A DNA stretch of 64,000 nt from a virus, in the IMG/VR virus record IMGVR_UViG_3300035698_031678, positions 1 through 64,000 of that record, one strand, 5' to 3'. This document shows positions 9,217-63,758 of this stretch, in pieces. The notes below the pieces were generated by a model. The model made no database searches and was not told the origin of the DNA. It saw only the letters and a program-made list of their open reading frames with translations. Numbering within the stretch: the first letter of the stretch is position 1; every line of letters starts with the position of its first letter. A program made the position numbers and the translations under genes.

Positions 9217-12135
9217 TTAGAATAATGGTGAAAAACTTATAAGGTTGCTGTCTAGCTTCTCTACCTTTAGTGCGAAAAAGACTAAATTCAAAGGATCTAG
9301 AATCATCTTAGAAAATTGAGCTTCCCAATCAATCTCTGGGGCTATTTCCATTGGATAATCTCCAACATTAAAACCAAAGTACTTAAGGTTTTTATCTTTT
9401 GTTAGAAAGTACTGTATCTTAGTACCATCCTTTATGTCTGGGTATTGGGTTAAGAACATCTTGTTAGAAGGCATATTCCTCATGTGATTGTATGATGCTG
9501 CTGCTCTAACATTTGCTGGAGTACCTGACAAAAGACTTATTTCTGGATAGTGAGAAATACAATAGGCGTGATACTTATTTAATCTTTCAGCAATACTAAC
9601 GTTTTCGACACCAGCTACTTCAAACCCTTCTCTTATATTTCTTACTATTTTTACTATATTAGTGTAGCTCAAGCCTTCTCCCTCGTACATTATAGCAGTA
9701 ATTATAGTCCTCAAGCTCTCTCTAATGTATTTGGGATAACTACTTTTGTTTACTGGAAGCCCTTTAACCTGTATATTGCTTTCTGGCAGCATTGCAGTAC
9801 CATCATCCCAAATTGGATTCTTTATATAGTGTTTTTTGCCAGTCCATAACATGTTTTTGTTAATTTGTTCTAATCCTAAGGAATAGCTTTGACTACCATC
9901 TTGCATATTTGGATTAGCATTATGTTTAACACAATAATCAAAAAAAGTTCTCTTAAAGAAAGGTTGAAAGCAAAATTCATCCATAAATAAGAAAAATAAA
10001 ACCTTATGGTAGACTTTTTTATCACCTTGATACAAGTCTAAGTTGATCCTTTGTGCAGCAACACATTCTAGAGAAAGTTTTTCCAGATCAACTTTTCCAG
10101 ATTCTATTAATTCATCCCAATCTATAGAGGAATATATTGTACCCAAAGAAGTCATTATAGAATCGGTATCAGCATATTTAACTACTGGATTTTTACTGTC
10201 GAACGTTTTTGGAATATTTATGCTATTTGCTATACCCATTTTTTCATGTAAATCGGTGTCTGTCCAAAATGAAAAAGAAGAATCTTCTTCGGGTTTACCA
10301 AAGTAATCATTAACTTTACTAATAGCATGTTTAATAACCATTCTACTTTGAGTTGTAACACTTTCAGCAACCTCTTTGTTGTACAATATAAATCTAGCGT
10401 AACCAACAACACCGTACATCGAGTTCATAATAATCTTTAGGGCATCACTAAGGTTTTTAGCGCTTATCTTAGACCTGTTTAACATTCTGAGAACAGTTTC
10501 AATGTCAGAGTTTTCTGGCACTTCTATATTCCATTCTTCGAGTCTATCCTCATAGCCTTTAATAGAGTTATTTTGTTTCAGTGCTTCGTAGACAGCACCC
10601 ATATCAGCAGCGTTCCTCTTTTCTTTTACTCTACCGTTAAATAGAGACCATATAAGGTCATTTAAACTACTGTTTTGATTCTTGTCATATATAGTACCGT
10701 TAGCGGTTATAGACATATCATCTGTTATAGGGCTTTCTTCGTTAAAATCATTATAATAAACAAGTTCTTCAGACCTGTCAAGTTCATTTATCTCATTATG
10801 GATTCTACCTTTTGGTGTAGTATAAGTGTTTATTTTACTAGGATGCAATCTTCCTAATTTAGAATCAACTCCCATGTTAAAAGCCATCATGCCAGCTGGA
10901 AAGAAAGAAGTAAAATCGTGTATTAGAACGTCATTGTGTAATCCAGTTACAGGCGCTAATACAAAACCACCAGAATAAGTGCCAGTTGGATCGTCACCAT
11001 ATTCTGGTACTAGCATCTGATTTCTTTCTTTTTTATAGTAATCCGAAAACAAGGTGTTAGCCACTGCACTAGCGTGGAAACCATCAAAATGATCAACTTT
11101 ACCAACTGTACTTATAGCATGCAATGTAGAGTAAGTGTCTAACTCTTGATCTATTAGCTGAACAATTACAGGATCAATAATGGCGTACAGTAAGAAATCT
11201 TTAGGGTCAGATATGTAGAGTTCTGCTAGTGAACCTTGGAAAGGAACTTTTTTAATTCCGACAACTAATTCACCTATATTATCTAAGGAAACATTTGTTT
11301 TTAACTTTACAGATCTATCAAATTCTTCAAATACCTTCATGTAGTCCATGATAGGTTTGTGCATTGGTAACTCTATATTGTGTTTAACATCTCTTTGGTG
11401 CTTGTCAGATAGAGACCAATTAAATGTGTTACCAGTTGGACTCATTCTAGAGTACTCAACACCTAACCTCTTGCATCTATTAGAAATGTATCGACAATCA
11501 AACTTTAGGTAATTCCAACCAAGTATTAAGTGAAATTTCTTAGACCAATTGTATATGTAGTCTTCTAGTAAAGATTTTTCAGACTCATAATAGAGGTAAT
11601 GTAGTTTGTATTTTTTCTTTAAGTGAGTCTTTTTAATGTCGTTTAAGTAAACGTTAGCTCTACGCTCTAGGGTTTGTATTTCTAGCTCGTTTAAAGAAAT
11701 TAGACCTTGAAGCCAAACGTTACCCTCTTCGTCACACCAACAATTGGTAACTATTGGGTGCTTAGCTTCTTCCTCTTCTGGAAATTCGTCTGGAGAATAT
11801 ACCTCTATATCGGCAAAGGTTTTCTTAGGTGGTGTAGTAGAAAATATCTTATCTAATGTTCTTTTTGGTAGATCATTTAAAATCTCGATCTTTCTAAACT
11901 TATTAAGCCTTCTAGCTGGAATTCTTTTAATCGTTTTCCCTTTGTGAGACTTAAATTTTCTGTCTTTCTTTAGGTCAGATGGGTCGCAATGAATGTAATT
12001 GTAAAGTTGGTCTCTCCTTAGAGGCAACTTTATCATCTTTAATTCTCCAAAGTCTTTGTCCCAATATGAAATGAATAATGCTTGATCAGAATATCCGCTA
12101 GTAGCTTTAACCGTTAATTGTTCTAAGTTAACCAT
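9217..12135 (-). CDS. 43: DNA polymerase, family B (T4 gp43-like), with proofreading exonuclease
   Basis: 972-residue replicative polymerase. Exonuclease motifs: FADIEVYS (Asp109/Glu111), GWNYLKFD (Asp213) and YAIID (Asp321). Polymerase motif A is DFTSFFP (Asp407), motif B NSMYG at 571-575 and motif C YADTDS at 654-659, where most relatives have YGDTDS. All catalytic carboxylates are present, so both activities should be intact. It is encoded with clamp, SSB and clamp loader of the same T4 type. In a phage that carries PurZ this is notable, because classical Z-phages pair PurZ with a family A polymerase (DpoZ). Confidence 0.95.
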   Translation of the reverse strand: MVNLEQLTVKATSGYSDQALFISYWDKDFGELKMIKLPLRRDQLYNYIHCDPSDLKKDRKFKSHKGKTIKRIPARRLNKFRKIEILNDLPKRTLDKIFSTTPPKKTFADIEVYSPDEFPEEEEAKHPIVTNCWCDEEGNVWLQGLISLNELEIQTLERRANVYLNDIKKTHLKKKYKLHYLYYESEKSLLEDYIYNWSKKFHLILGWNYLKFDCRYISNRCKRLGVEYSRMSPTGNTFNWSLSDKHQRDVKHNIELPMHKPIMDYMKVFEEFDRSVKLKTNVSLDNIGELVVGIKKVPFQGSLAELYISDPKDFLLYAIIDPVIVQLIDQELDTYSTLHAISTVGKVDHFDGFHASAVANTLFSDYYKKERNQMLVPEYGDDPTGTYSGGFVLAPVTGLHNDVLIHDFTSFFPAGMMAFNMGVDSKLGRLHPSKINTYTTPKGRIHNEINELDRSEELVYYNDFNEESPITDDMSITANGTIYDKNQNSSLNDLIWSLFNGRVKEKRNAADMGAVYEALKQNNSIKGYEDRLEEWNIEVPENSDIETVLRMLNRSKISAKNLSDALKIIMNSMYGVVGYARFILYNKEVAESVTTQSRMVIKHAISKVNDYFGKPEEDSSFSFWTDTDLHEKMGIANSINIPKTFDSKNPVVKYADTDSIMTSLGTIYSSIDWDELIESGKVDLEKLSLECVAAQRINLDLYQGDKKVYHKVLFFLFMDEFCFQPFFKRTFFDYCVKHNANPNMQDGSQSYSLGLEQINKNMLWTGKKHYIKNPIWDDGTAMLPESNIQVKGLPVNKSSYPKYIRESLRTIITAIMYEGEGLSYTNIVKIVRNIREGFEVAGVENVSIAERLNKYHAYCISHYPEISLLSGTPANVRAAASYNHMRNMPSNKMFLTQYPDIKDGTKIQYFLTKDKNLKYFGFNVGDYPMEIAPEIDWEAQFSKMILDPLNLVFFALKVEKLDSNLISFSPLF

Positions 12136-12159: not shown

Positions 12160-12405
12160 CTAATGTGTCTTAATAAGTTGGTTTCTTTTTAGCAGATTTA
12201 TAAAACCATCCAACGCTTCTTCAAAATCGTCTGCTTGAAATCCAAAAGAAGACTTTTCGTTTATTTCTATCTGCTCGTTATCTTCGTGACCAATAAGCGC
12301 AAAAAGAACCATATTATCTGTGTATTCCGTAATAGTCCTACAGAGTTTACCTCTGTAGACGAATTCTTCTCTTAGTAATCCAATTTTTTGTTCTAGTGTC
12401 ATCAT
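12160..12405 (-). CDS. Small hypothetical protein downstream of GroEL
   Basis: 81 residues, acidic, with MVLFALIGHEDNEQIEINEK in the middle and an EEALDGFINLLKRN helix at the end. Not recognised. Its ATG overlaps the GroEL stop by 4 bp, so it is translated with it. It is short and compact, as expected for a regulator or partner, but no function can be assigned. Confidence 0.6.
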   Translation of the reverse strand: MMTLEQKIGLLREEFVYRGKLCRTITEYTDNMVLFALIGHEDNEQIEINEKSSFGFQADDFEEALDGFINLLKRNQLIKTH

Positions 12406-14033
12406 AATATGCTATCTGGTATATTAACTAATCCGCAACCAATGTTAGAAAGTAATGTTAAAGTCGCAGCAGAGTTTTTAAAACAAGCTGAAGGAGATTT
12501 AGCACTTTCTAAAATACCTAAAGTGAAGGCATTACCCATTTTATGGGTCAATGTGCAATAAACAACATCTTTACCGCTGCTCTGCATTTTTAGCATTATT
12601 TCTTTAGACTCAGTTTTAGAGTAATTAGAATTTTTAAGATTTTGCATAGTTACTGCAACTAAAGAATCTAAAACAACTGAATATCCAGACCACTGTATTT
12701 CAGTTATAGTTTTATCATTCTCATGGTTGTAGATGAAGTTTTCCATAGCATCCAAGTAAATTTTACCTACTCCAGGCACTATACCATGTTTTAGTGCACT
12801 TCTACATGCTCTAAGCGCATCATCAACTCTATCGTAATCTAACCCCATCTTGTACTGACTAGTGCTATCAAAGTGTATTATAGCTATATTACCTTTTATT
12901 CTAGCTATTCTAAAATTTGTAAACTCTTTAGCAACTTCGCTGTCGGTAGATTCAGAAAGATCAACTAACTTAGCAACATGAGCATCATATGCTTCACCTT
13001 TAGAATCTTCGTCAAAATTAAATACTGTTTCCTCAATGTTTGTTAGTACGTCTTTACAAATTCCAAACAACTCTAAGGAGTCTTTGTCAGAATCTAAAAC
13101 GAATTCTTCTAACATCATATCCTTGCTGTGGTCTAAAAAGGTGCTTCCAGTAATAACAGATAAGTCCTCTAGTATAGAATCTCTTCTATCGTCATTGTTT
13201 GGAGCAATCAATGGCAAACAAGGTATGTCTGAATAGTTTTTCTTTATTGTAGTCATAGCAACTTCTGAAAAAGAGTTAGCTATTACTATTACTGATTTTT
13301 TAGCAATGTGAGCTACTTGCAATATTTCAGCCATAACTTCTACAGAATCTAAGTGCTGGTTGGTTATGAATATCAATGGTTCCTTAGCAATAAAGGAATG
13401 CCCATGATTCATGAAGCTGTGGTGCATAAGACCTGAATCTAAGATGTAACCACTAGAAATATCAGTGTAAGATTCTTTAACCTCTTTGTAGTTGATTCTC
13501 ACAACGCCAGATTCACCAATTTTATGGTAAGTCTCTCCTATAAGTTTACCGAGCTTGGGATCATTGTTAGCACTGATGGTCGCAACAGAAATTAACTCTT
13601 CCCTAGTCAGTTCGGTCTTATTATCAGCTATTTCATCTAAGTAATCCTGAACGTATGATATAGCGTAATTTATAGAATCCAAGAGTTCTCTATTGTTGTG
13701 CTCACCATTAAAATTGGGCAAAGCATAGAAGTTCTTGGCTAAAAAATAAGCCATTACTACAGTAGAAGTAGTACCATCACCTATTTGTTTTAACGTTTGG
13801 AAACTACCTTCTATAACAAGCTTAGCAGACATATCTTCTAAAAAATTTTCTAGAGAAATCTCTTTAGCTATTGATACTCCATCCTTTGTTATTCTTGGTC
13901 TACCATTTGCGTCTGGCATGATTACGTACTTACCGTTACTACCTAAAGTAACTGCAACGGCATCATAAACTTTTGTTACACCAGAGAGCATAGAGTCTCT
14001 TAGAATTTGACCTTTAATTATTTCTTTATCCAT
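12402..14033 (-). CDS. groL: GroEL-type chaperonin
   Basis: 543 residues, the usual GroEL length (548). The ATP site is conserved: LGSNGKYVIM, TKDGVSIAKEI (Asp51), GDGTTSTVV (Asp86), and VDDALRACRSALKHGIVPG near residue 400 carries the equivalent of Asp398. The apical region is divergent, and the C terminus lacks the GGM repeats. Chaperonins fold proteins inside a double heptameric ring with a GroES lid. A tandem-domain GroES gene lies 1 bp upstream, so the phage makes its own chamber, probably for capsid or tail proteins (T4 needs host GroEL plus gp31 to fold its capsid protein). Confidence 0.92.
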   Translation of the reverse strand: MDKEIIKGQILRDSMLSGVTKVYDAVAVTLGSNGKYVIMPDANGRPRITKDGVSIAKEISLENFLEDMSAKLVIEGSFQTLKQIGDGTTSTVVMAYFLAKNFYALPNFNGEHNNRELLDSINYAISYVQDYLDEIADNKTELTREELISVATISANNDPKLGKLIGETYHKIGESGVVRINYKEVKESYTDISSGYILDSGLMHHSFMNHGHSFIAKEPLIFITNQHLDSVEVMAEILQVAHIAKKSVIVIANSFSEVAMTTIKKNYSDIPCLPLIAPNNDDRRDSILEDLSVITGSTFLDHSKDMMLEEFVLDSDKDSLELFGICKDVLTNIEETVFNFDEDSKGEAYDAHVAKLVDLSESTDSEVAKEFTNFRIARIKGNIAIIHFDSTSQYKMGLDYDRVDDALRACRSALKHGIVPGVGKIYLDAMENFIYNHENDKTITEIQWSGYSVVLDSLVAVTMQNLKNSNYSKTESKEIMLKMQSSGKDVVYCTLTHKMGNAFTLGILESAKSPSACFKNSAATLTLLSNIGCGLVNIPDSIL

Positions 14034-14034
14034 A

Positions 14035-14565
14035 TTATATAAGTACTAGAACGTCTTCTTCTTGTAAGACTAAGAGTTCCTGATTATTAAATTTTACTTT
14101 AAATCCAGCAAATTTGCTGTATATTATTGTTTTTCCTTCTAACAACTTAGGGTGAGATGTGGGTGATCTATAAGTAATTGTACCTTTAGTATCTACATCT
14201 TTAGCATCAGTAGCTATTTTTACTACACCTCTAAATTTGTCTTCAACCTTTTCTGGGACAACTACTATATAATTGTTCAGTGTTATGATTGATCCTTGAT
14301 CTGTAAGTATGAAATAAATTTCTGTAGTCTCTAAGACTCTATATTCTTCACCATCATTACTGACTTCAACCCCAGCAAATTCTGGATAACAAACGTCCAT
14401 GCCCACACTAAGAACCGATACTTCATCAGAGCAAACCAAAATAGTGCCAACAGTTCTTTTCTTTATTACCTCTGTGGGTAAGAATATGTCTTTTATTCTG
14501 TCTTCTTTGGGTTTGGTCTTCACCAGAACTTTATTTCCTATAAGTGATAATTCTTTAATCAACAT
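14035..14565 (-). CDS. groS: Tandem-domain GroES-like co-chaperonin
   Basis: 176 residues made of two GroES-like folds in series. Domain 1 (about 1-88) has GNKVLVKTKPKEDRIKDIFLP, a mobile-loop-length insertion, TVGTILVCSDE and CYPEFAGVEV. Domain 2 (about 92-176) has NNYIVVVPEKVEDKFRGVV, GTITYRSP, IIYSKFAGFKVKFNNQEL and LQEEDVLVLI, the last matching the GroES end 'ESDILAIVE'. Each repeat keeps the 'YxxFAGxxV' element. Ordinary GroES has one domain of about 97 residues; double domains are known in chloroplast Cpn20. It sits directly ahead of GroEL and overlaps the clamp gene by 11 bp. The fold assignment is by eye. Confidence 0.75.
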   Translation of the reverse strand: MLIKELSLIGNKVLVKTKPKEDRIKDIFLPTEVIKKRTVGTILVCSDEVSVLSVGMDVCYPEFAGVEVSNDGEEYRVLETTEIYFILTDQGSIITLNNYIVVVPEKVEDKFRGVVKIATDAKDVDTKGTITYRSPTSHPKLLEGKTIIYSKFAGFKVKFNNQELLVLQEEDVLVLI

Positions 14566-15343
14566 CTGTAAGTGAGCTAACGTTAGTAAAATTGTCTTGA
14601 TTTACAAGGTACGCCATTTTCATACCGTTTTCATTTTCAGAGAAGTGTAGTTCAAACTCTGAATATGACTTGTAACCTCTAAAAACGTCAAGGGATAATG
14701 TCAATTTACCCTCTAAGTCACAGAATTTTAAACCTTGTTCTTCTGTGAATATGAAGTCTAGTGTTTTGGCGTGATTCTTGTGTCTGAATACTAGATTACC
14801 ATCATCATTCTTGAATATGGTCATAACATCCATTCTTTCGGTGTCACTTTTAGAAATCTTATGTAAACTAATTATTTCTAAAATCTTATTGCTGGTAATA
14901 TCTATTCTTGCGGTTACGCCTTTAGGTTCAGAGAAGTTCTTACTCCAAACTTCATCTGGTAAGTAATTGGCAAGTTCAAATGTTCCAGCAACAAAGTCAT
15001 AGTTTATGTAATCGTTAGATATTGTAAATTTCTTACAGATATCTTCTTCACAAGTTAGAGTTAATTTTAGGGTGGAACTACCTCTCATCCATCCAGTAAC
15101 TTTTTGCAGTAAAGAATAGTTTTGCAAAAAGAACTTAAAATGGCTCATTTTACCTTTTATTTTAACTTCTTCGTTAAAGGAAAACTTTCTGAATATTATG
15201 TTGGTTTTAGATTGGTTGAAGGCTTTTAGGTGAATGCCTTTTTCATCTATGTCCAGAACTTGATCTAATTCCATAAAACTGTTAGAACAAAAATCATGAA
15301 ATCTTTGAGAATCTAATCCCTCTATGGTTATTTTATTTGCCAT
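14555..15343 (-). CDS. 45: DNA polymerase sliding clamp (T4 gp45-like)
   Basis: 262 residues, a little longer than T4 gp45 (228). The start (ITIEGLDSQRFHDFCSNS) and the later ATIEG/KMSHFKFFLQNYS and DVMTIFKNDDGNLVFRHKNH segments fit the repeated beta-alpha-beta clamp fold. The clamp tethers polymerase to DNA and, in T4, activates late transcription with gp55 and gp33. Overlaps of 11 bp on both sides link it to the MazG-like and GroES genes. Sequence identity is low, so the call relies on size, fold pattern and the neighbouring replisome. Confidence 0.72.
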   Translation of the reverse strand: MANKITIEGLDSQRFHDFCSNSFMELDQVLDIDEKGIHLKAFNQSKTNIIFRKFSFNEEVKIKGKMSHFKFFLQNYSLLQKVTGWMRGSSTLKLTLTCEEDICKKFTISNDYINYDFVAGTFELANYLPDEVWSKNFSEPKGVTARIDITSNKILEIISLHKISKSDTERMDVMTIFKNDDGNLVFRHKNHAKTLDFIFTEEQGLKFCDLEGKLTLSLDVFRGYKSYSEFELHFSENENGMKMAYLVNQDNFTNVSSLTDVD

Positions 15344-15917
15344 GGTTGATGGTTATTTTGATGTTAGAACTTCTACCACCAGGGTAACGGTTTTCCAGTT
15401 TGCCTTTATTCATAGACATTATTTTGGATAGGTCGTAGTTGAAATGCTTAAACATTCCGAAGAAAGACTTGGTGGTTAAGCGATGATATTTGTCAAAGGC
15501 TTCTAGGTCAAATTCTCTGTCAAGGAAGAAAACCTTTTTGTGTAGTCCTAGTAAAGAAAGTTGATCGCAAACCAGGATTTGAGGCTCGAAATAGGAATCG
15601 GTCTTAACATTTATAGACATCAATTCATTGTAGTAAGAGTCAGGGTTTTCAGTAGAATTGGTGGCATGAAACCAAGCTGTCCAATACCATAAATAATCAC
15701 CTAATTCTAGTTGGAAATCTACGTTGTCTCTTAGTATAGCCATGGTAGAAGCCTTTCCATGATGCTTTAGTATTTCTCCAGCTTCTTCAGCCATACCAAT
15801 TTGATAATTTAATTGGTCTATTTGATTAAAATCCGCTGCAGTATTGAGCATTTCTCTCTTCACCCAGTTACCATAATCAGCTATCTTTTTTATTTCTTTT
15901 GGAGTACTTTGTATCAT
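15333..15917 (-). CDS. MazG-like nucleotide pyrophosphohydrolase (candidate MazZ)
   Basis: 194 residues. The all-alpha NTP-PPase signature is present: EEAGE (Glu44, 45, 48) in helix 1 and QLELGDYLWYW (Glu71, Asp74) in helix 2, giving the ExxE...ExxD magnesium site. The C-terminal NKGKLENRYPGG is typical of phage MazG relatives. The enzymes cleave (d)NTP to (d)NMP and pyrophosphate. In Z-phages a MazG homologue (MazZ) turns dGTP into the dGMP that PurZ uses, and a PurZ is encoded at 28229. The substrate cannot be read from sequence. It overlaps the clamp gene and the gene behind it by a few bases. Confidence 0.82.
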   Translation of the reverse strand: MIQSTPKEIKKIADYGNWVKREMLNTAADFNQIDQLNYQIGMAEEAGEILKHHGKASTMAILRDNVDFQLELGDYLWYWTAWFHATNSTENPDSYYNELMSINVKTDSYFEPQILVCDQLSLLGLHKKVFFLDREFDLEAFDKYHRLTTKSFFGMFKHFNYDLSKIMSMNKGKLENRYPGGRSSNIKITINHGK

Positions 15918-28228: not shown

Positions 28229-29587
28229 ATGATAAAAAAGAATAAATTAAACTTCTTACTAGATGGTTGCGCTGGTTCTTCAGGCAAAGGTAAAATGGCT
28301 GCTTTTCTTGTTAAAAATAATAAGATAGATTACCTGGTAACTTCTAATACTGCCAATGCTTCTCACACTGTTGTAGAAAAAGGTAAAGAATATGTTTTTA
28401 AGGTACTTCCTAGTGGGGTTTTATATCACGAGAAAATAGAAAAAGTCTTTATTGCAGATGGTGCTGGATTTGTTGTTGCAGACCTTTTTAAGGAAATTGA
28501 AATGACTGGTATTCCTTTGGAAAAAATCTTCATATCACCAAGGGCAGCAATTATTACCCAAATAGACAAAGATTACGAAAACGGTCTTTGTGATTTACAA
28601 GGTGAATATTTTGAGACCCGACAAGATGGAACTCTTAGAACTGGAACTACTGCTAGTGGTTCTGGCGCTGTTCTTGCTAAAAAAGTACTAAGAATAAAAA
28701 ATCTTGTAACTGCTGGAGATTTGGAAGAACTCAAACCGTTTATAACGGATGTGGGTACTGAAATAATGAAAATAAATGGTAAAAAGACAGGTCTTTTTGA
28801 AATAGGGCAAGGTTACCCACTTTCTAACAACCATCCAATGTTTGCCCCATTTACTACTAGTAGAAATGTTACTGTGGCTGCTGCTCTAAATGATGCCATG
28901 CTAAGCCCTAGTATAGTTGGTAATGTTTTTATTAATTTTAGGACTTTTCCTATTAAGATACACAATTACAAGTATCTAGCTACAGAAGATAAGGAATACT
29001 CTTACCCAGCCAGTAGCGCAGCTTGGGTAGAAAAAAACCATTGCCCTCACCACACCATTGTGAGTGATGGCGTAACAATCACTGTTAATATCTTCAAAGA
29101 CACCTTTCTTTCTTACTACGAAAAAGACTTTGTTTTAAACGAAAGAATAGATTCTCATAGTGGCGAATTTTACCCAGATCAAGAAGAAATCACATGGGAA
29201 GAATTGAACAGCAGAATAGGTGATCCAGAGCCACCTATATTAGAATGTACAACTCTTACAAAACTACCTAGAAGAGTTGCAGAGTTTTCAAAAGAGAACC
29301 TAATAGATGCAGTTGTTCACAATGTATCACCTTTTGACACTTTTGTTAGCGTAAATTTCGCTAATTATGTAGATCCTGTACTGGAAGATTGCCATGGATC
29401 TTACAAGTGGTCAAATTCAACAAAATTCAACGATTGGTTAGTTGAAAACATAGTTAAAGTTCAAATGACCTTATTAAAAGATTATGACATCTTATTTGGA
29501 ATTGCGCTTATAGGTACAGGAGCTGAAACTGATTCTACTATTACTGTAGATGAGTATTCTACCACTAACAATACTATTACTGGATAA
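28229..29587 (+). CDS. purZ: PurZ-type 2-aminoadenylosuccinate synthetase
   Basis: 452 residues, adenylosuccinate synthetase superfamily. The P-loop region reads CAGSSGKGK: PurA has WGDEGKGK, so the catalytic Asp and following Glu are Ser17 and Ser18. PurZ enzymes carry Ser/Thr there. NASHT keeps the second catalytic His (His46). FEIGQGYPLS matches the IMP-loop 'FEGAQG', and GTTASGSGA the 'GTTGRGIG' segment. SGEFYPDQEEITWEEL, TTLTKLPRRV and NFANYVDP are, as I recall, very close to vibriophage PurZ. PurZ joins dGMP and aspartate using ATP/dATP; host PurB then releases dZMP. It is longer than known PurZ (about 350) through an insertion of roughly 65 residues at 245-310. It lies just before RNase HI and terminase. 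Confidence 0.87.
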   Translation: MIKKNKLNFLLDGCAGSSGKGKMAAFLVKNNKIDYLVTSNTANASHTVVEKGKEYVFKVLPSGVLYHEKIEKVFIADGAGFVVADLFKEIEMTGIPLEKIFISPRAAIITQIDKDYENGLCDLQGEYFETRQDGTLRTGTTASGSGAVLAKKVLRIKNLVTAGDLEELKPFITDVGTEIMKINGKKTGLFEIGQGYPLSNNHPMFAPFTTSRNVTVAAALNDAMLSPSIVGNVFINFRTFPIKIHNYKYLATEDKEYSYPASSAAWVEKNHCPHHTIVSDGVTITVNIFKDTFLSYYEKDFVLNERIDSHSGEFYPDQEEITWEELNSRIGDPEPPILECTTLTKLPRRVAEFSKENLIDAVVHNVSPFDTFVSVNFANYVDPVLEDCHGSYKWSNSTKFNDWLVENIVKVQMTLLKDYDILFGIALIGTGAETDSTITVDEYSTTNNTITG

Positions 29588-30080
29588 TTTGAATTCTAAA
29601 ACAAACCCTGGTTCTAGCGTGCAAAAGCTAGAACCAGTTTTAGAAATCTACACTGATGGCTCTTGTTGGAATAAAGGTAAAAACAAATCATATAATTTAT
29701 CCTGTTCTGTAGCTGTTTTTGTTCTAGACAACAAAATAATAGAAAAATTAGTAACCATAAGAAACCATACAACTAGTAATGTTGCCGAAATAGATGCCAT
29801 AATATTAGCTCTAGAGGTGGCTTGGGATTTAATGTACTTAAATGTAAAAATCTACACTGATTCTGAATATGCTATTAAAAGGCTGACGAGAGATATGGAT
29901 TCAGAAGTTAATTTTTCTAGTAAGTTAAAGTACGAAGGCTTTCATAACGCTATGGAAATAACTTTTCAGCATGTTAAAGGTCATAACGGTAATAAATACA
30001 ACGAAATAGCAGATAACCTCTGTAGGACTATTAGAAAAAAACACCAAAGTATAATAAAAGATTTGGATTATGAAGGGTAA
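29550..30080 (+). CDS. rnhA: Ribonuclease HI
   Basis: 176 residues; catalytic tetrad visible as YTDGSC (Asp36), VAEIDAI (Glu80), IYTDSEYA (Asp104) and NEIADN (Asp155), with the loop histidine in KGHNG (145). It degrades RNA in RNA-DNA hybrids, for primer removal or R-loop control, alongside the FEN-type RNase H at 16373. The ATG at 29550 overlaps purZ by 38 bp and adds a 28-residue leader before the fold; no later start is better. The end overlaps the terminase ATG by 11 bp. Confidence 0.88.
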   Translation: MSILPLTILLLDNLNSKTNPGSSVQKLEPVLEIYTDGSCWNKGKNKSYNLSCSVAVFVLDNKIIEKLVTIRNHTTSNVAEIDAIILALEVAWDLMYLNVKIYTDSEYAIKRLTRDMDSEVNFSSKLKYEGFHNAMEITFQHVKGHNGNKYNEIADNLCRTIRKKHQSIIKDLDYEG

Positions 30081-31947
30081 GCCTGAAGTAAATAATGTTT
30101 GGACAACAGCCAAAGTGCATGCTCTTTTAAAAGACTTTAACAGAACTGGAGTTATACCTGATCTCAATCCATTTTTTAAAAGAGACGTTAAAAGAAGAAA
30201 AGGTGGTTTAGTTTGGGAATACACTAGAGAGGAGATTTTAGAATTAGCAGCTTGCCAATCAAATGTGCTTAGATATGCAAAGCACTGTACAGTAATGACC
30301 GAAAAAGGTCTGCAAAAAATAGTATTAAGACCTTACCAGGTAGTAGTGCTTAAATTATTGCAGATTAACCCATTCTTTTTATATCTTGCTAGTAGACAAA
30401 TTGGTAAAAGTATAGTCATAGCAATATTCATTGGTTGGTTAACCACATTTTTTCCTGATACGCCCTGTCTTTTAGGTAGCGAAAACCATCATAAAGCTAA
30501 AGATTTAAAGAAGAAACTAGATGTCATGATATTTAGTATGCCCCTGTATATGCAAAATGGAGTGGAATATCATTCTACAATGAGAACAATTTGGGATAAT
30601 GGTAGCAGTGTAGTAAGTGAGGCAACCACAGAGAACTTTGGGGTTTCTGGTTCATACAAGGTTGTTTACGCTGATGAATTTGCATTACTGGAAGCATATC
30701 TACAAGACGCTATTATAACACACCTTACGCCAACCATGGACACATTTGGTGACGATGCTAGGTTTATAATAAGCACAACACCTAGAGGTAAAAAGAACAA
30801 GTTCGCAAGCATGTGGTTTGATTCTTTAGAAGGTTTAAACAAATTTGGAAACTTTACCACCAAGTGGTTTGAAATAGATGGAAGAGGTGCTAATTGGAGA
30901 AAAGATAAGGTCTCTTTAATGGGTGAAGATGGTTTTAGTCAAGAATACGACCTAAATTTTGATGTAGACAGTACTCTGCTGTTATTGCCAGAGATTCAAA
31001 AGGATATTACAGATAAAATAGAAAGCTATACTTATTACAAAAAAATAAGTATAGAAATATTAAAAAATTACATACTACCTGATAGAGAAAACAACGTATC
31101 TAACATAAACAAAAATGAGTTAGACGAAGAAGCTTTCTATGAAAAAATAAAACAAGACAAATTTGAAAATATATTTTGTGTAAAAGATGGATACAGCATA
31201 GACAACCTGGCTGACCCTTCTAGACAATTTGTCATATCTACTGACCTTGCAGAAGGAGTTGGCAAAGATTTTAATGAAGCCAACATTTTTGAAATTGTTT
31301 TATTAAATCTTAGTAAGGCTTCCCATGGTTCTTACACAGTTACAGATGAGACTTCTTTGTTTGGTTTAAAACAGGTTGCTTATATCAGGACTAATTTATT
31401 AGAAGTAGAAGACTTTGCAAAATTTTGTTATTATATTATTGCAGCTACGCAAAATCCTGACAATTATAGAATGGCTTTAGAGGTTAATTTTGAAGGAAAT
31501 ATGTTTATAAAGACATTGTTTGAGGTTAACGGTGAAAACAATGTTTTAGACCCAAGTACTATGATGGTTGAGTTTCCTTGGAACATGGAATTTGATGATG
31601 CTCTTACTTTTAAAATGGGTATAAAACAAACTAACAAAACAAAAGTTAGAGGTTCTAAGAAATCTAAGAAATTTATAGGAAATGGTAGAATAGAAATAAA
31701 TGATGATAAAACTGTGAGAGAGGCTTGCGGTTTTGGTAAAGATAAGAAAGGTAATTATAACGGTACTACTAGGAATGATGATTCATTTATGACCGTAGTA
31801 AATGTCTCTCATTATTTTGAAAGTGAGTACTTTGTTGATCAAGTAGAAGAATTAATTGAAGGTCTAGATGATGAGACTAAAATTTTCATAGATGAACTAG
31901 TACAAGGTGAGGATGAACTATTAACAAATTTTGGTGGGAATGCGTAA
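30070..31947 (+). CDS. 17: Terminase large subunit (T4 gp17-like)
   Basis: 625 residues (T4 gp17 610). ATPase: LRPYQ Q-motif at 87, Walker A SRQIGKS (108-114), Walker B VVYADE (Asp202/Glu203) and the ISTTPRG coupling motif at 234. The nuclease domain starts FVISTDLAEGVGKD (Asp392) with later ALEVN and NDDSFMT acidic residues. It drives DNA into the prohead and cuts the concatemer. The start overlaps RNase HI. No small terminase is recognisable next to it. Confidence 0.95.
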   Translation: MKGKPEVNNVWTTAKVHALLKDFNRTGVIPDLNPFFKRDVKRRKGGLVWEYTREEILELAACQSNVLRYAKHCTVMTEKGLQKIVLRPYQVVVLKLLQINPFFLYLASRQIGKSIVIAIFIGWLTTFFPDTPCLLGSENHHKAKDLKKKLDVMIFSMPLYMQNGVEYHSTMRTIWDNGSSVVSEATTENFGVSGSYKVVYADEFALLEAYLQDAIITHLTPTMDTFGDDARFIISTTPRGKKNKFASMWFDSLEGLNKFGNFTTKWFEIDGRGANWRKDKVSLMGEDGFSQEYDLNFDVDSTLLLLPEIQKDITDKIESYTYYKKISIEILKNYILPDRENNVSNINKNELDEEAFYEKIKQDKFENIFCVKDGYSIDNLADPSRQFVISTDLAEGVGKDFNEANIFEIVLLNLSKASHGSYTVTDETSLFGLKQVAYIRTNLLEVEDFAKFCYYIIAATQNPDNYRMALEVNFEGNMFIKTLFEVNGENNVLDPSTMMVEFPWNMEFDDALTFKMGIKQTNKTKVRGSKKSKKFIGNGRIEINDDKTVREACGFGKDKKGNYNGTTRNDDSFMTVVNVSHYFESEYFVDQVEELIEGLDDETKIFIDELVQGEDELLTNFGGNA

Positions 31948-32596
31948 AAGATCTAAAGAAATAGAAAAGGGTATTAATTTACTAATGGAAAATTATAATT
32001 ACACCAGAGAAGAGGTAATTAGTATTTTTGATATGAATGAAATAGTTTCGATATTTGATTCGGAAACTTTAAAAGATAATAGCGTTCACCTGAACGTTAT
32101 AGAAGAAAACACAAAAACATATGCAGAAAAACAAGAATTTGACCTTGTTAAAAGCTTTATACTGAAAACCTGTAATGGTTGCCCAGCTTTCATTCATTAC
32201 TATAACATGTTGGGTAGTAACATTTATTACGTTAACAGAAAAGTGATGTATCAAGAGAAAAGATATAATGTTATTTGTTCTAACGGAAAGACTTTATACT
32301 TGACAGATAACAGTTGTATAAAAATAGTTTCTACTGATGAAGTTAAGGTTGTTATAGAAGATCTGAATTTTAAAGAAACTTATGAATTTGTTGTCTTGGT
32401 TTATCAACAGATGTTAGAGTTTAAACCTATTTCTCTAGTTAAGTTTGTCGCTATATTTGTAGACATATACGACCTCAATTACAAAAAACTAATTAGTTCC
32501 TTAAACCCAGAGATGAAAGACACACTGATGAAAGAAATAAAGAGTTTTACTACTAAAAATAATTTGGGTTACGACTTCGGTAGAGCAAAAATATGA
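31940..32596 (+). CDS. Hypothetical protein next to terminase
   Basis: About 218 residues from the ATG at 31940, which overlaps the terminase stop; a TTG at 31931 would add three residues. It has a charged N-terminal helix (RKRSKEIEKGINLLMENY) and a MNEIVSIFD segment, then mixed alpha/beta sequence with GCPAFIHYYN. No family. Packaging or neck role possible from position only. Confidence 0.65.
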   Translation: MRKRSKEIEKGINLLMENYNYTREEVISIFDMNEIVSIFDSETLKDNSVHLNVIEENTKTYAEKQEFDLVKSFILKTCNGCPAFIHYYNMLGSNIYYVNRKVMYQEKRYNVICSNGKTLYLTDNSCIKIVSTDEVKVVIEDLNFKETYEFVVLVYQQMLEFKPISLVKFVAIFVDIYDLNYKKLISSLNPEMKDTLMKEIKSFTTKNNLGYDFGRAKI

Positions 32597-42012: not shown

Positions 42013-42969
42013 TTAAAATTTAATGAATGAATAATTTAACGAATTAGATAATATTTCAGTTTTTTTGTTTATTAATATTTCAGACTTGTCTAGATAAGAA
42101 TATTCATTTTTTAAACTAGTTCCAAGAAATAATTTTCCATCTGTATTAAGTGTTATATTCACACCGTTAACCACCAGATTTTCCATAGCATTTATCATGC
42201 CTGATTCATCAAATATTTTGGTAGTTATATTAGAGTTTGGACACATTTCCAAACATACGTCATTATGACTTAATAATTCCATAGTCTGCATGTTTTTATA
42301 GGCTTGCACGCCATGACCTATTCTTTTTACCCTTAACTCATTAACTGCATATTCTATTTCTGAATTACCATCCAAAGGTAATTCTCCAGCATGTACCGTA
42401 AGACCAACTTTGTCAGAGTTGTGAAATATGAACATATATGCTTTCCTTAATTTTTCCATATCAGAAAGTCCGCAAGTAGCACCACTAGCATCAAAGCCTA
42501 CAATACCAAAATTTTCATACTTTACCGCTTTCCTGGCTAATATCAAAGATTCTTCCTCTGTAAAAGATTTGTCGGTTGAAATAATGATTCCAGCATGAAC
42601 ATTAAAGGCATCTTTTGCTCTGTTCAAACCTATACAAGCCTCTAGAATTATAGTATCTAAATCGTACAAGGCGTCATTATTTCTAAACATTGGGTTGAAC
42701 CTAATTTCTATGCCATCTATACCATCATCGTAAGCACTTTTAACTGCAGCATATATGCTCTCTCTTACACCCATTGGAGTACTTTGAATCATGTGAGTCA
42801 ATTTGTACTTATTGAGATACTCATTGTGATTTTTAACGCTAGTAGCAGAGAATACATTACGAAAATCACTGTAGTTTTTGAAACCTGTGTTTATTCCTTG
42901 TAACTTTGCTATTCTCCAAAGTTCTTCTGGGCTTACCATAGAACCTAAGTGAGCATGTAAATCAATCAT
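42013..42969 (-). CDS. Adenosine deaminase-family enzyme
   Basis: 318 residues, amidohydrolase barrel. Zinc ligands DLHAHLG (His5, His7), TVHAGE (His193 and catalytic Glu196), RIGHG (His219) and LEMCPNSN are present. The last site, canonical 'NTDDP', is NTDGK: the metal Asp277 stays but the next Asp, which contacts the purine, is Gly278. So zinc and general base look intact while purine binding is changed. Family members deaminate adenosine/deoxyadenosine or related 6-substituted purines. In a phage with PurZ this could remove dA-type nucleosides or handle 2,6-diaminopurine ones, which ADA is known to accept. The substrate is open. Confidence 0.85.
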   Translation of the reverse strand: MIDLHAHLGSMVSPEELWRIAKLQGINTGFKNYSDFRNVFSATSVKNHNEYLNKYKLTHMIQSTPMGVRESIYAAVKSAYDDGIDGIEIRFNPMFRNNDALYDLDTIILEACIGLNRAKDAFNVHAGIIISTDKSFTEEESLILARKAVKYENFGIVGFDASGATCGLSDMEKLRKAYMFIFHNSDKVGLTVHAGELPLDGNSEIEYAVNELRVKRIGHGVQAYKNMQTMELLSHNDVCLEMCPNSNITTKIFDESGMINAMENLVVNGVNITLNTDGKLFLGTSLKNEYSYLDKSEILINKKTEILSNSLNYSFIKF

Positions 42970-63206: not shown

Positions 63207-63758
63207 TTAAGTATCTAGCCAAATTTTTTCTGATAAACTCTTTAAGTTGAATTTAGGGTCAGTTATTTCAACATCAAAATCCTTGAAATCCTTGAATTGC
63301 TCCCAATCTGTAGTCATTCTTTTCTCAACATTGTCAGCGTTTTCCCTTTGCGATAATCTTTCTTCTCTTACATTGTCGCTTATGTTAATATAGACAACTA
63401 TCAATTTACTATTCCTTAAATGCATTGGTAACCTGTTAACGCCAGCTGGAGTCATTATGAAAAGGTTAGATTTATTAAACTCTTCTTTAGTCGTTCCATA
63501 AACAAAACCGTTAGGAAAGTACTTGAATTGCATGAATTTATCTTCACTTATCATTTTTAACATCATGTTTTCTGTAACAAAATGATAGGTTTTTCCTCCT
63601 ACTTCACCAGTTCTTGGTGGTCTAGTAGTATAGCTTATTTCAGTAGTAATATCGTTCAGTTGACTTAGCAAGTTCTTAGCGTAATCTTTACCACTTCCAC
63701 CTTGCCCTACTAAGATTATCTTTTTGTCTCTTAGCCTATTATCTTGTTCCTTATTCAT
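63207..63758 (-). CDS. gmk: Guanylate kinase
   Basis: 183 residues (usual GMK about 200). P-loop GQGGSGKD (18-25). The GMP-binding part has ISYTTRPPRTGEVGGKTYHF (Ser, Arg and Tyr contacts), LIVVYINISD, and EERLSQRENAD near the lid. The enzyme makes (d)GDP from (d)GMP; cellular guanylate kinases also take dZMP in Z-phage infections, so this gene fits the PurZ pathway. It overlaps the stop of the upstream gene by one base (TAATG). Confidence 0.9.
   Translation of the reverse strand: MNKEQDNRLRDKKIILVGQGGSGKDYAKNLLSQLNDITTEISYTTRPPRTGEVGGKTYHFVTENMMLKMISEDKFMQFKYFPNGFVYGTTKEEFNKSNLFIMTPAGVNRLPMHLRNSKLIVVYINISDNVREERLSQRENADNVEKRMTTDWEQFKDFKDFDVEITDPKFNLKSLSEKIWLDT

Follow-up and report, generated by a model that had tools for sequence, protein, structure and literature searches.

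The stretch of DNA analysed here (the window) comprises 64,000 bases, positions 1-64000 of a 129,295-base virus record (G000) that may be incomplete. Its relevant features are listed below, with positions in the window except for two genes that lie outside it, for which positions in the G000 record are given.

28229..29587 (+): purZ-like gene, candidate 2-aminoadenylosuccinate (dSMP) synthetase of 452 aa (profiles, tree, alignment, MaF61 homologue)
28271..28294 (+): P-loop AGSSGKGK, residues 15-22, with Ser17 in place of PurA Asp13 (alignments)
28355..28366 (+): NASH, residues 43-46, at the position of PurA/PurZ NAGH; N43 is the base contact and H46 the conserved His (alignment)
28961..29158 (+): clade-specific insertion, residues 245-310; the PurZ-specific loop that follows the V241 position is enlarged here (alignment, low-confidence model, PMC8342488 section 8)
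29249..29275 (+): aspartate-substrate loop TTLTKLPRR, residues 341-349 (alignment)
29354..29368 (+): NFANY, residues 376-380, ATP-type motif for adenine binding; PurA carries TKLD here, with an Asp that reads guanine (alignment; S-2L N305/F306/Q308 in PMC8342488)
30070..31947 (+): terminase large subunit, just downstream of purZ (phrog_5989 8.6e-27; MaF61 ORF141-ORF142)
9217..12135 (-): family B DNA polymerase (replicative), 972 aa (PF00136 3.5e-21, PF03104, phrog_262 1.6e-110)
15333..15917 (-): MazG-like pyrophosphohydrolase candidate for dGTP/dATP to dGMP/dAMP (phrog_229 5.9e-15; EEAGE motif at 44)
42013..42969 (-): adenosine-deaminase-family (ADA) protein, 318 aa (PF00962 1.5e-39, TIGR01430 3.5e-44; HxH and HAGE present)
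63207..63758 (-): guanylate kinase candidate for dZMP to dZDP (PF00625 2.5e-20, phrog_1815 2.1e-34)
99412-100812 (-), G000 record, outside the window: PurB (Lyase_1 and ASL_C; motifs TSQD, GRTHGQ, SSTMPQKINP)
120929-121852 (+), G000 record, outside the window: HD 5'-deoxynucleotidase candidate (phrog_318 3.3e-31)

The 452-aa open reading frame at 28229-29587 (+), present where the original prediction had placed it, is a genuine PurZ-family gene. Its product matches PF00709 (6e-20), phrog_1211 "2-aminooxy adenylosuccinate synthetase" (9e-33) and the NCBIfam PurZ model NF038379 (1.3e-38, 132.9 bits); among named relatives it is closest to ORF141 of Flavobacterium phage MaF61 (PQ858689; 56% identity over 96%), annotated solely as "putative adenosuccinate synthetase"; and its AlphaFold model (pLDDT 79, pTM 0.82) has the PurA/PurZ fold and hits structures of PurA/PurZ with E 1e-20 to 1e-23, so that chance is ruled out. 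These searches leave PurA and PurZ close together: the archaeal PurA model scores the protein at 127.7 bits, nearly equal to the PurZ model, and PurA and PurZ are indistinguishable by the structure search, in which 5k7x and 6fm1 ranked first and second. The window protein does not reach the curated NF038379 cut-off of 300 bits, and neither do the other members of its clade (131-154 bits) or phage OH (241 bits), whereas S-2L (349.8), phiVC8 (397.2), SH-Ab 15497, ZP6 and the PurZ0 of Wayne (366.7) lie above it, with S-2L, phiVC8, Wayne and SH-Ab 15497 spanning 350-421 bits. The protein had been described as about 100 residues longer than known PurZ, and we found it 109 aa longer than that of phiVC8 (343 aa) and 65-93 aa longer than those of S-2L and SH-Ab 15497 (359 and 387 aa). 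Two of its stretches had also been described as very close to known PurZ, and SGEFYPDQEEITWEEL (residues 311-326) does align with SGGHYPDQEELTWEQL of phiVC8 PurZ and TTLTKLPRRV (residues 341-350) with TTVTKLPRRI of S-2L; such closeness does not hold for the whole protein, which is about 24-30% identical to classical PurZ overall and forms a separate deep lineage below the model cut-off.

The active site is that of a PurZ rather than a PurA. The catalytic Asp13 is 99% conserved in PurA, and its replacement by Ser or Gly defines the PurZ family (PMC12884076); as had been predicted from the P-loop, Ser17 of the window protein aligns with both E. coli Asp13 and S-2L PurZ Ser23, the residue that adjoins the 2-amino group of dGMP (PMC8342488). 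Ser occupies this position in all 12 members of the window clade and in all tested PurZ/PurZ0, while all PurA have Asp. When the S-2L PurZ residues (PMC8342488) were transferred by alignment, N49, T132, R146, Q190, T205, T273, T276, K277 and R280 were all conserved, and N43, R155, Q194, T341-T344, K345 and R348 of the window protein are, like Ser17, PurZ-like. The donor site reads NFANY, compared with NFCNY in phiVC8 PurZ (an ATP user) and the GTP-type TKLD in PurA, so that the protein lacks this PurA feature as well as the catalytic Asp of GDEGKGK. The deoxyribose reader V241 of S-2L, which is positioned so that a ribose 2'-OH would clash with it and is drawn towards the sugar by a PurZ-specific insertion directly after it (PMC8342488), corresponds to Ile244 here and to Ile in most of the clade. 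The long insertion proposed near residues 245-310 does lie between I244 and S311, exactly at the site of this short PurZ loop, and measures 66-67 aa in MaF61 and the window protein, 31-38 aa in the other clade members and 4-14 aa in classical PurZ (10 in S-2L); because model confidence is low at residues 253-303, we make no claim on its structure. In seven of the 12 clade members (L021, L023, L025-L028, L030), Gln replaces the base-reading Asn of all PurA/PurZ (PQAGH/AQAGH instead of NAGH), and part of the clade may therefore have changed its specificity.

Relatives were collected from IMG/VR scans, on viral contigs, and one near-duplicate was omitted from the tree. In the resulting 40-row tree, one 12-member clade (100/100) united the window protein with MaF61 and with ten viral contigs, of which two were 320 and 341 kb long. 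This clade was nested inside PurZ+PurZ0 (100/99), on the classical PurZ side (99/95), and outside the branch of S-2L, phiVC8 and SH-Ab. A second tree with four odd rows dropped left the clade and its placement unchanged. AU tests rejected trees in which the clade was forced outside PurZ+PurZ0 (-30.8 log units, p 0.0016) or together with archaeal-type PurA (-100.8 log units, p 3.7e-5). The check proposed with the original prediction, a profile and tree comparison with PurA and PurZ/PurZ0, thus came out on the PurZ side, and the PurZ-type assignment is favoured alike by the tree, by the residues of the active site and by the gene context; an ordinary PurA is ruled out by Ser17, the donor motif and the AU tests. 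Given the tree placement, the AU tests and the scores below the cut-off, we assign the window protein to the PurZ family as a new, third deep lineage distinct from classical PurZ. A clade-profile scan of 84,980 species genomes found no relatives of the clade. Separately, the "PurA" of Bacillus phage vB_BpsS-140 (L019:11953-13074), with the Ser, GSEGKGK and NFANY, branched between PurZ0 and PurZ; this phage also carries adk and dut and could be a further Z-phage.

Set beside classical PurZ (cyanophage S-2L, vibriophage phiVC8, Acinetobacter phage SH-Ab 15497), the window protein shares the Ser for the catalytic Asp, the T-T/S-x-T-K loop, the NFxN/Q motif, the fold and one clade, but differs in its low identity, its 100/100 lineage, a 67-aa insertion, the V241 to I244 change, NASH for NAGH, its score below the NF038379 cut-off and its setting in a large myovirus. 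The same Ser is found in PurZ0 (Arthrobacter phage Wayne, Gordonia phages Ghobes and Frizzle, Streptomyces phage Hiyaa), which branches more deeply, keeps GSEAKG and has a donor-site Asp. Archaeal PurA (Pyrococcus horikoshii 2d7u/5k7x) shares the fold (TM 0.86-0.87 on target) and a short architecture, whereas it has the P-loop Asp and the GTP-type motif and is rejected as sister of the window clade.

MaF61, a 167.8-kb myovirus with headful packaging (PMC13269007), shares with the window's phage the insertion, purZ beside terL, PurB and a family B polymerase; in the window, an RNase H ORF (29550-30080) sits between purZ and terL. Of the 143 ORFs kept for G000, 68 have a homologue in MaF61, and PurZ is the best conserved of these shared proteins (56% against a median of 38%), with the capsid protein and ribonucleotide reductase ranking lower. 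On the strength of MaF61 and a GC content of 32%, the host of the window's phage is probably a Flavobacterium-like member of the Bacteroidota.

Several companion genes fit a Z pathway, and their distribution among the clade records is uneven. PurB was found in G000, MaF61, G007 and G010 as two different subtypes (best models PRK09285 and TIGR00928), for which reason it was probably acquired more than once; ADA was found in G000, G003, G007 and G010, as four proteins 19-34% alike; and the MazG-like gene in G000, MaF61, G001 and G010, that of the 341-kb contig (L093, G010:162906-163247) containing one in-frame TGA. In G007, a single strand carries PurZ, PolA, a DnaB-like helicase, ADA and PurB within 13 kb, and G000 encodes both RNR subunits, as judged from MaF61 homology. 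The window ADA reads NTDG where its G003/G010 relatives have TDDP, so that the second Asp of the usual TDD is Gly; its substrate may differ, since the metal-binding Asp is kept but the next Asp is lost. Neither PurB nor ADA was found in 20 control viral contigs without PurZ, although with this small control set and few records the association with PurZ reached only p 0.017 and was weaker by length. PurB is not unique to the window clade, as we had considered, because Gordonia and Streptomyces PurZ0 phages carry it too: the named cultured phages with PurB are six of Gordonia, five of Streptomyces, and MaF61, the Gordonia and Streptomyces counts equal those of PurZ0 carriers there, and Hiyaa, Frizzle and Spocter appear among both PurB and PurZ0 matches. 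The PurB of "Microcystis phage MaAM05" (L187) was discarded as bacterial DNA, as it is flanked by metG, glgX, ftsH and proS in a record that resembles a bacterial chromosome, and PurB on Acinetobacter MD-2021a contigs was set aside under a similar doubt. Scans of viral contigs for PurB and ADA gave no new relatives, and tblastn with the window ADA returned solely records that resemble bacterial DNA or are unannotated.

A different neighbour was seen in seven jumbo-type relatives (L021, L023, L025, L027, L028, L029, L030), where the first or second gene upstream of purZ encodes a protein of about 200 aa. Two of its members match nucleoside deoxyribosyltransferase (NDT) Pfam models weakly, and an AlphaFold model (pLDDT 73) matches NDT, YtoQ, DNPH1 and MilB structures. 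Structure matches of this kind led to DmtZ in PurZ0 phages (PMC12884076), among which Wayne and Ghobes encode DmtZ, and judging by the modelled fold we regard the neighbour as a DmtZ-like (NDT/DNPH1-fold) candidate. This gene is absent from the window's phage.

Synthesis of the dZMP precursor by the phage is well supported by what we infer from these genes, and a Z genome in the window's phage is plausible. In the pathway that we consider likely, the MazG-like enzyme would convert dGTP to dGMP; the third-lineage PurZ would attach aspartate at position 6 of dGMP, yielding N6-succino-2-amino-dAMP (dSMP), presumably with ATP given the NFANY motif; phage PurB would split dSMP into dZMP and fumarate; phage guanylate kinase would convert dZMP to dZDP; and host NDK would complete dZTP. 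In parallel, the MazG-like or a host enzyme would take dATP to dAMP, the HD 5'-deoxynucleotidase dAMP to dA, and the adenosine deaminase dA to deoxyinosine (dI), a drain that would starve the family B polymerase of dATP and lead it to insert Z opposite T. The genes, their families, the tree and the residues are observed, and the substrates, the flux and the presence of Z in virion DNA are inferred from them; Z probably replaces adenine in the DNA of these phages. A family B polymerase need be no obstacle, because the S-2L polymerase, which makes no A/Z choice, replaces all A once dATP is drained (PMC8065100); nor are DpoZ or PrimPol strictly required, since polymerase type varies among Z-phages. 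The HD nucleotidase and ADA branch may be optional or wrong, as neither gene was found in the complete genome of MaF61.

It is unlikely, in our judgement, that the enzyme makes dZMP while Z stays a minor base, or that dZMP is produced for the nucleotide pool or for counter-defence, with the family B polymerase working mostly on dATP. No Z-selective DpoZ/PolA-type polymerase was found in G000 or MaF61 and no true DatZ by profile in G000, where the only candidate was a weak HD-motif match that fits 5'-deoxynucleotidases better, and these observations favour such a reading, as does the lack of ADA and HD protein in MaF61. Set against it are the full replacement of A in S-2L by a non-selective polymerase and the presence in G000 of MazG-like, HD nucleotidase and ADA genes that could drain dATP. 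We find it distinctly improbable that the protein is a PurA-like enzyme for another substrate, remaking dAMP from dIMP with PurB (and ADA) or producing another modified purine nucleotide, despite the fact that PurA, PurB and a deaminase are together the genes of the purine nucleotide cycle, that the archaeal PurA model scores nearly as high, that the N43 position varies in the clade and that a plasmid PurA-PurB pair beside folE indicates that such pairs can be re-used. The Ser in all 12 members, the rejection of PurA kinship, the loss of the guanine-reading Asp from the GTP site and the DmtZ-like neighbour of the relatives all argue otherwise. The plasmid locus, from Rhizobium leguminosarum (L058:263-2490; folE, archaeal-type purA, purB), resembles a nucleoside-type biosynthesis cluster re-using PurA/PurB. 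That a degenerate or non-catalytic relative has been kept for some other role seems very improbable indeed, as the divergent sequence and the long, poorly modelled insertion that would suit it are outweighed by intact substrate and catalytic residues in the most conserved protein common to G000 and MaF61.

Published Z-phages are small sipho- or podoviruses that have PolA or PrimPol and infect Pseudomonadota, Cyanobacteriota and Actinomycetota (PMC12884076, PMC8342488, PMC8599892), and in a literature search outside the subscription journals we found no report naming ADA in Z-phages, or PurZ in phages that are T4-like, jumbo or of Bacteroidota. Because a third PurZ lineage occurs with other genes fitting the same job, Z-DNA may extend to large T4-like and jumbo phages. 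If the Z pathway outlined above is correct, Z-DNA occurs also in T4-like phages with contractile tails, probably of Bacteroidota, and in phages of 320-340 kb, a Z genome can be built by family B polymerases, and the pathway gains PurB, guanylate kinase and adenosine deaminase. More tentatively, and with some doubt, we propose that T4-like and jumbo phages may hold a self-sufficient Z system, in which the third PurZ, PurB and guanylate kinase lead from dGTP to dZDP, the MazG-like, HD and ADA proteins stand in for DatZ, and a family B polymerase does the copying. MaF61 is an isolate that exists in culture.

Two further regions of the window have counterparts in MaF61. Two ORFs within 12402-14565 match MaF61 ORF64 and ORF65, which are annotated as chaperonins, and the ORF at 31931-32596 weakly matches acid phosphatase/5'-nucleotidase lipoprotein e(P4) (E 0.0019), has a MaF61 homologue and could encode another nucleotide phosphatase.
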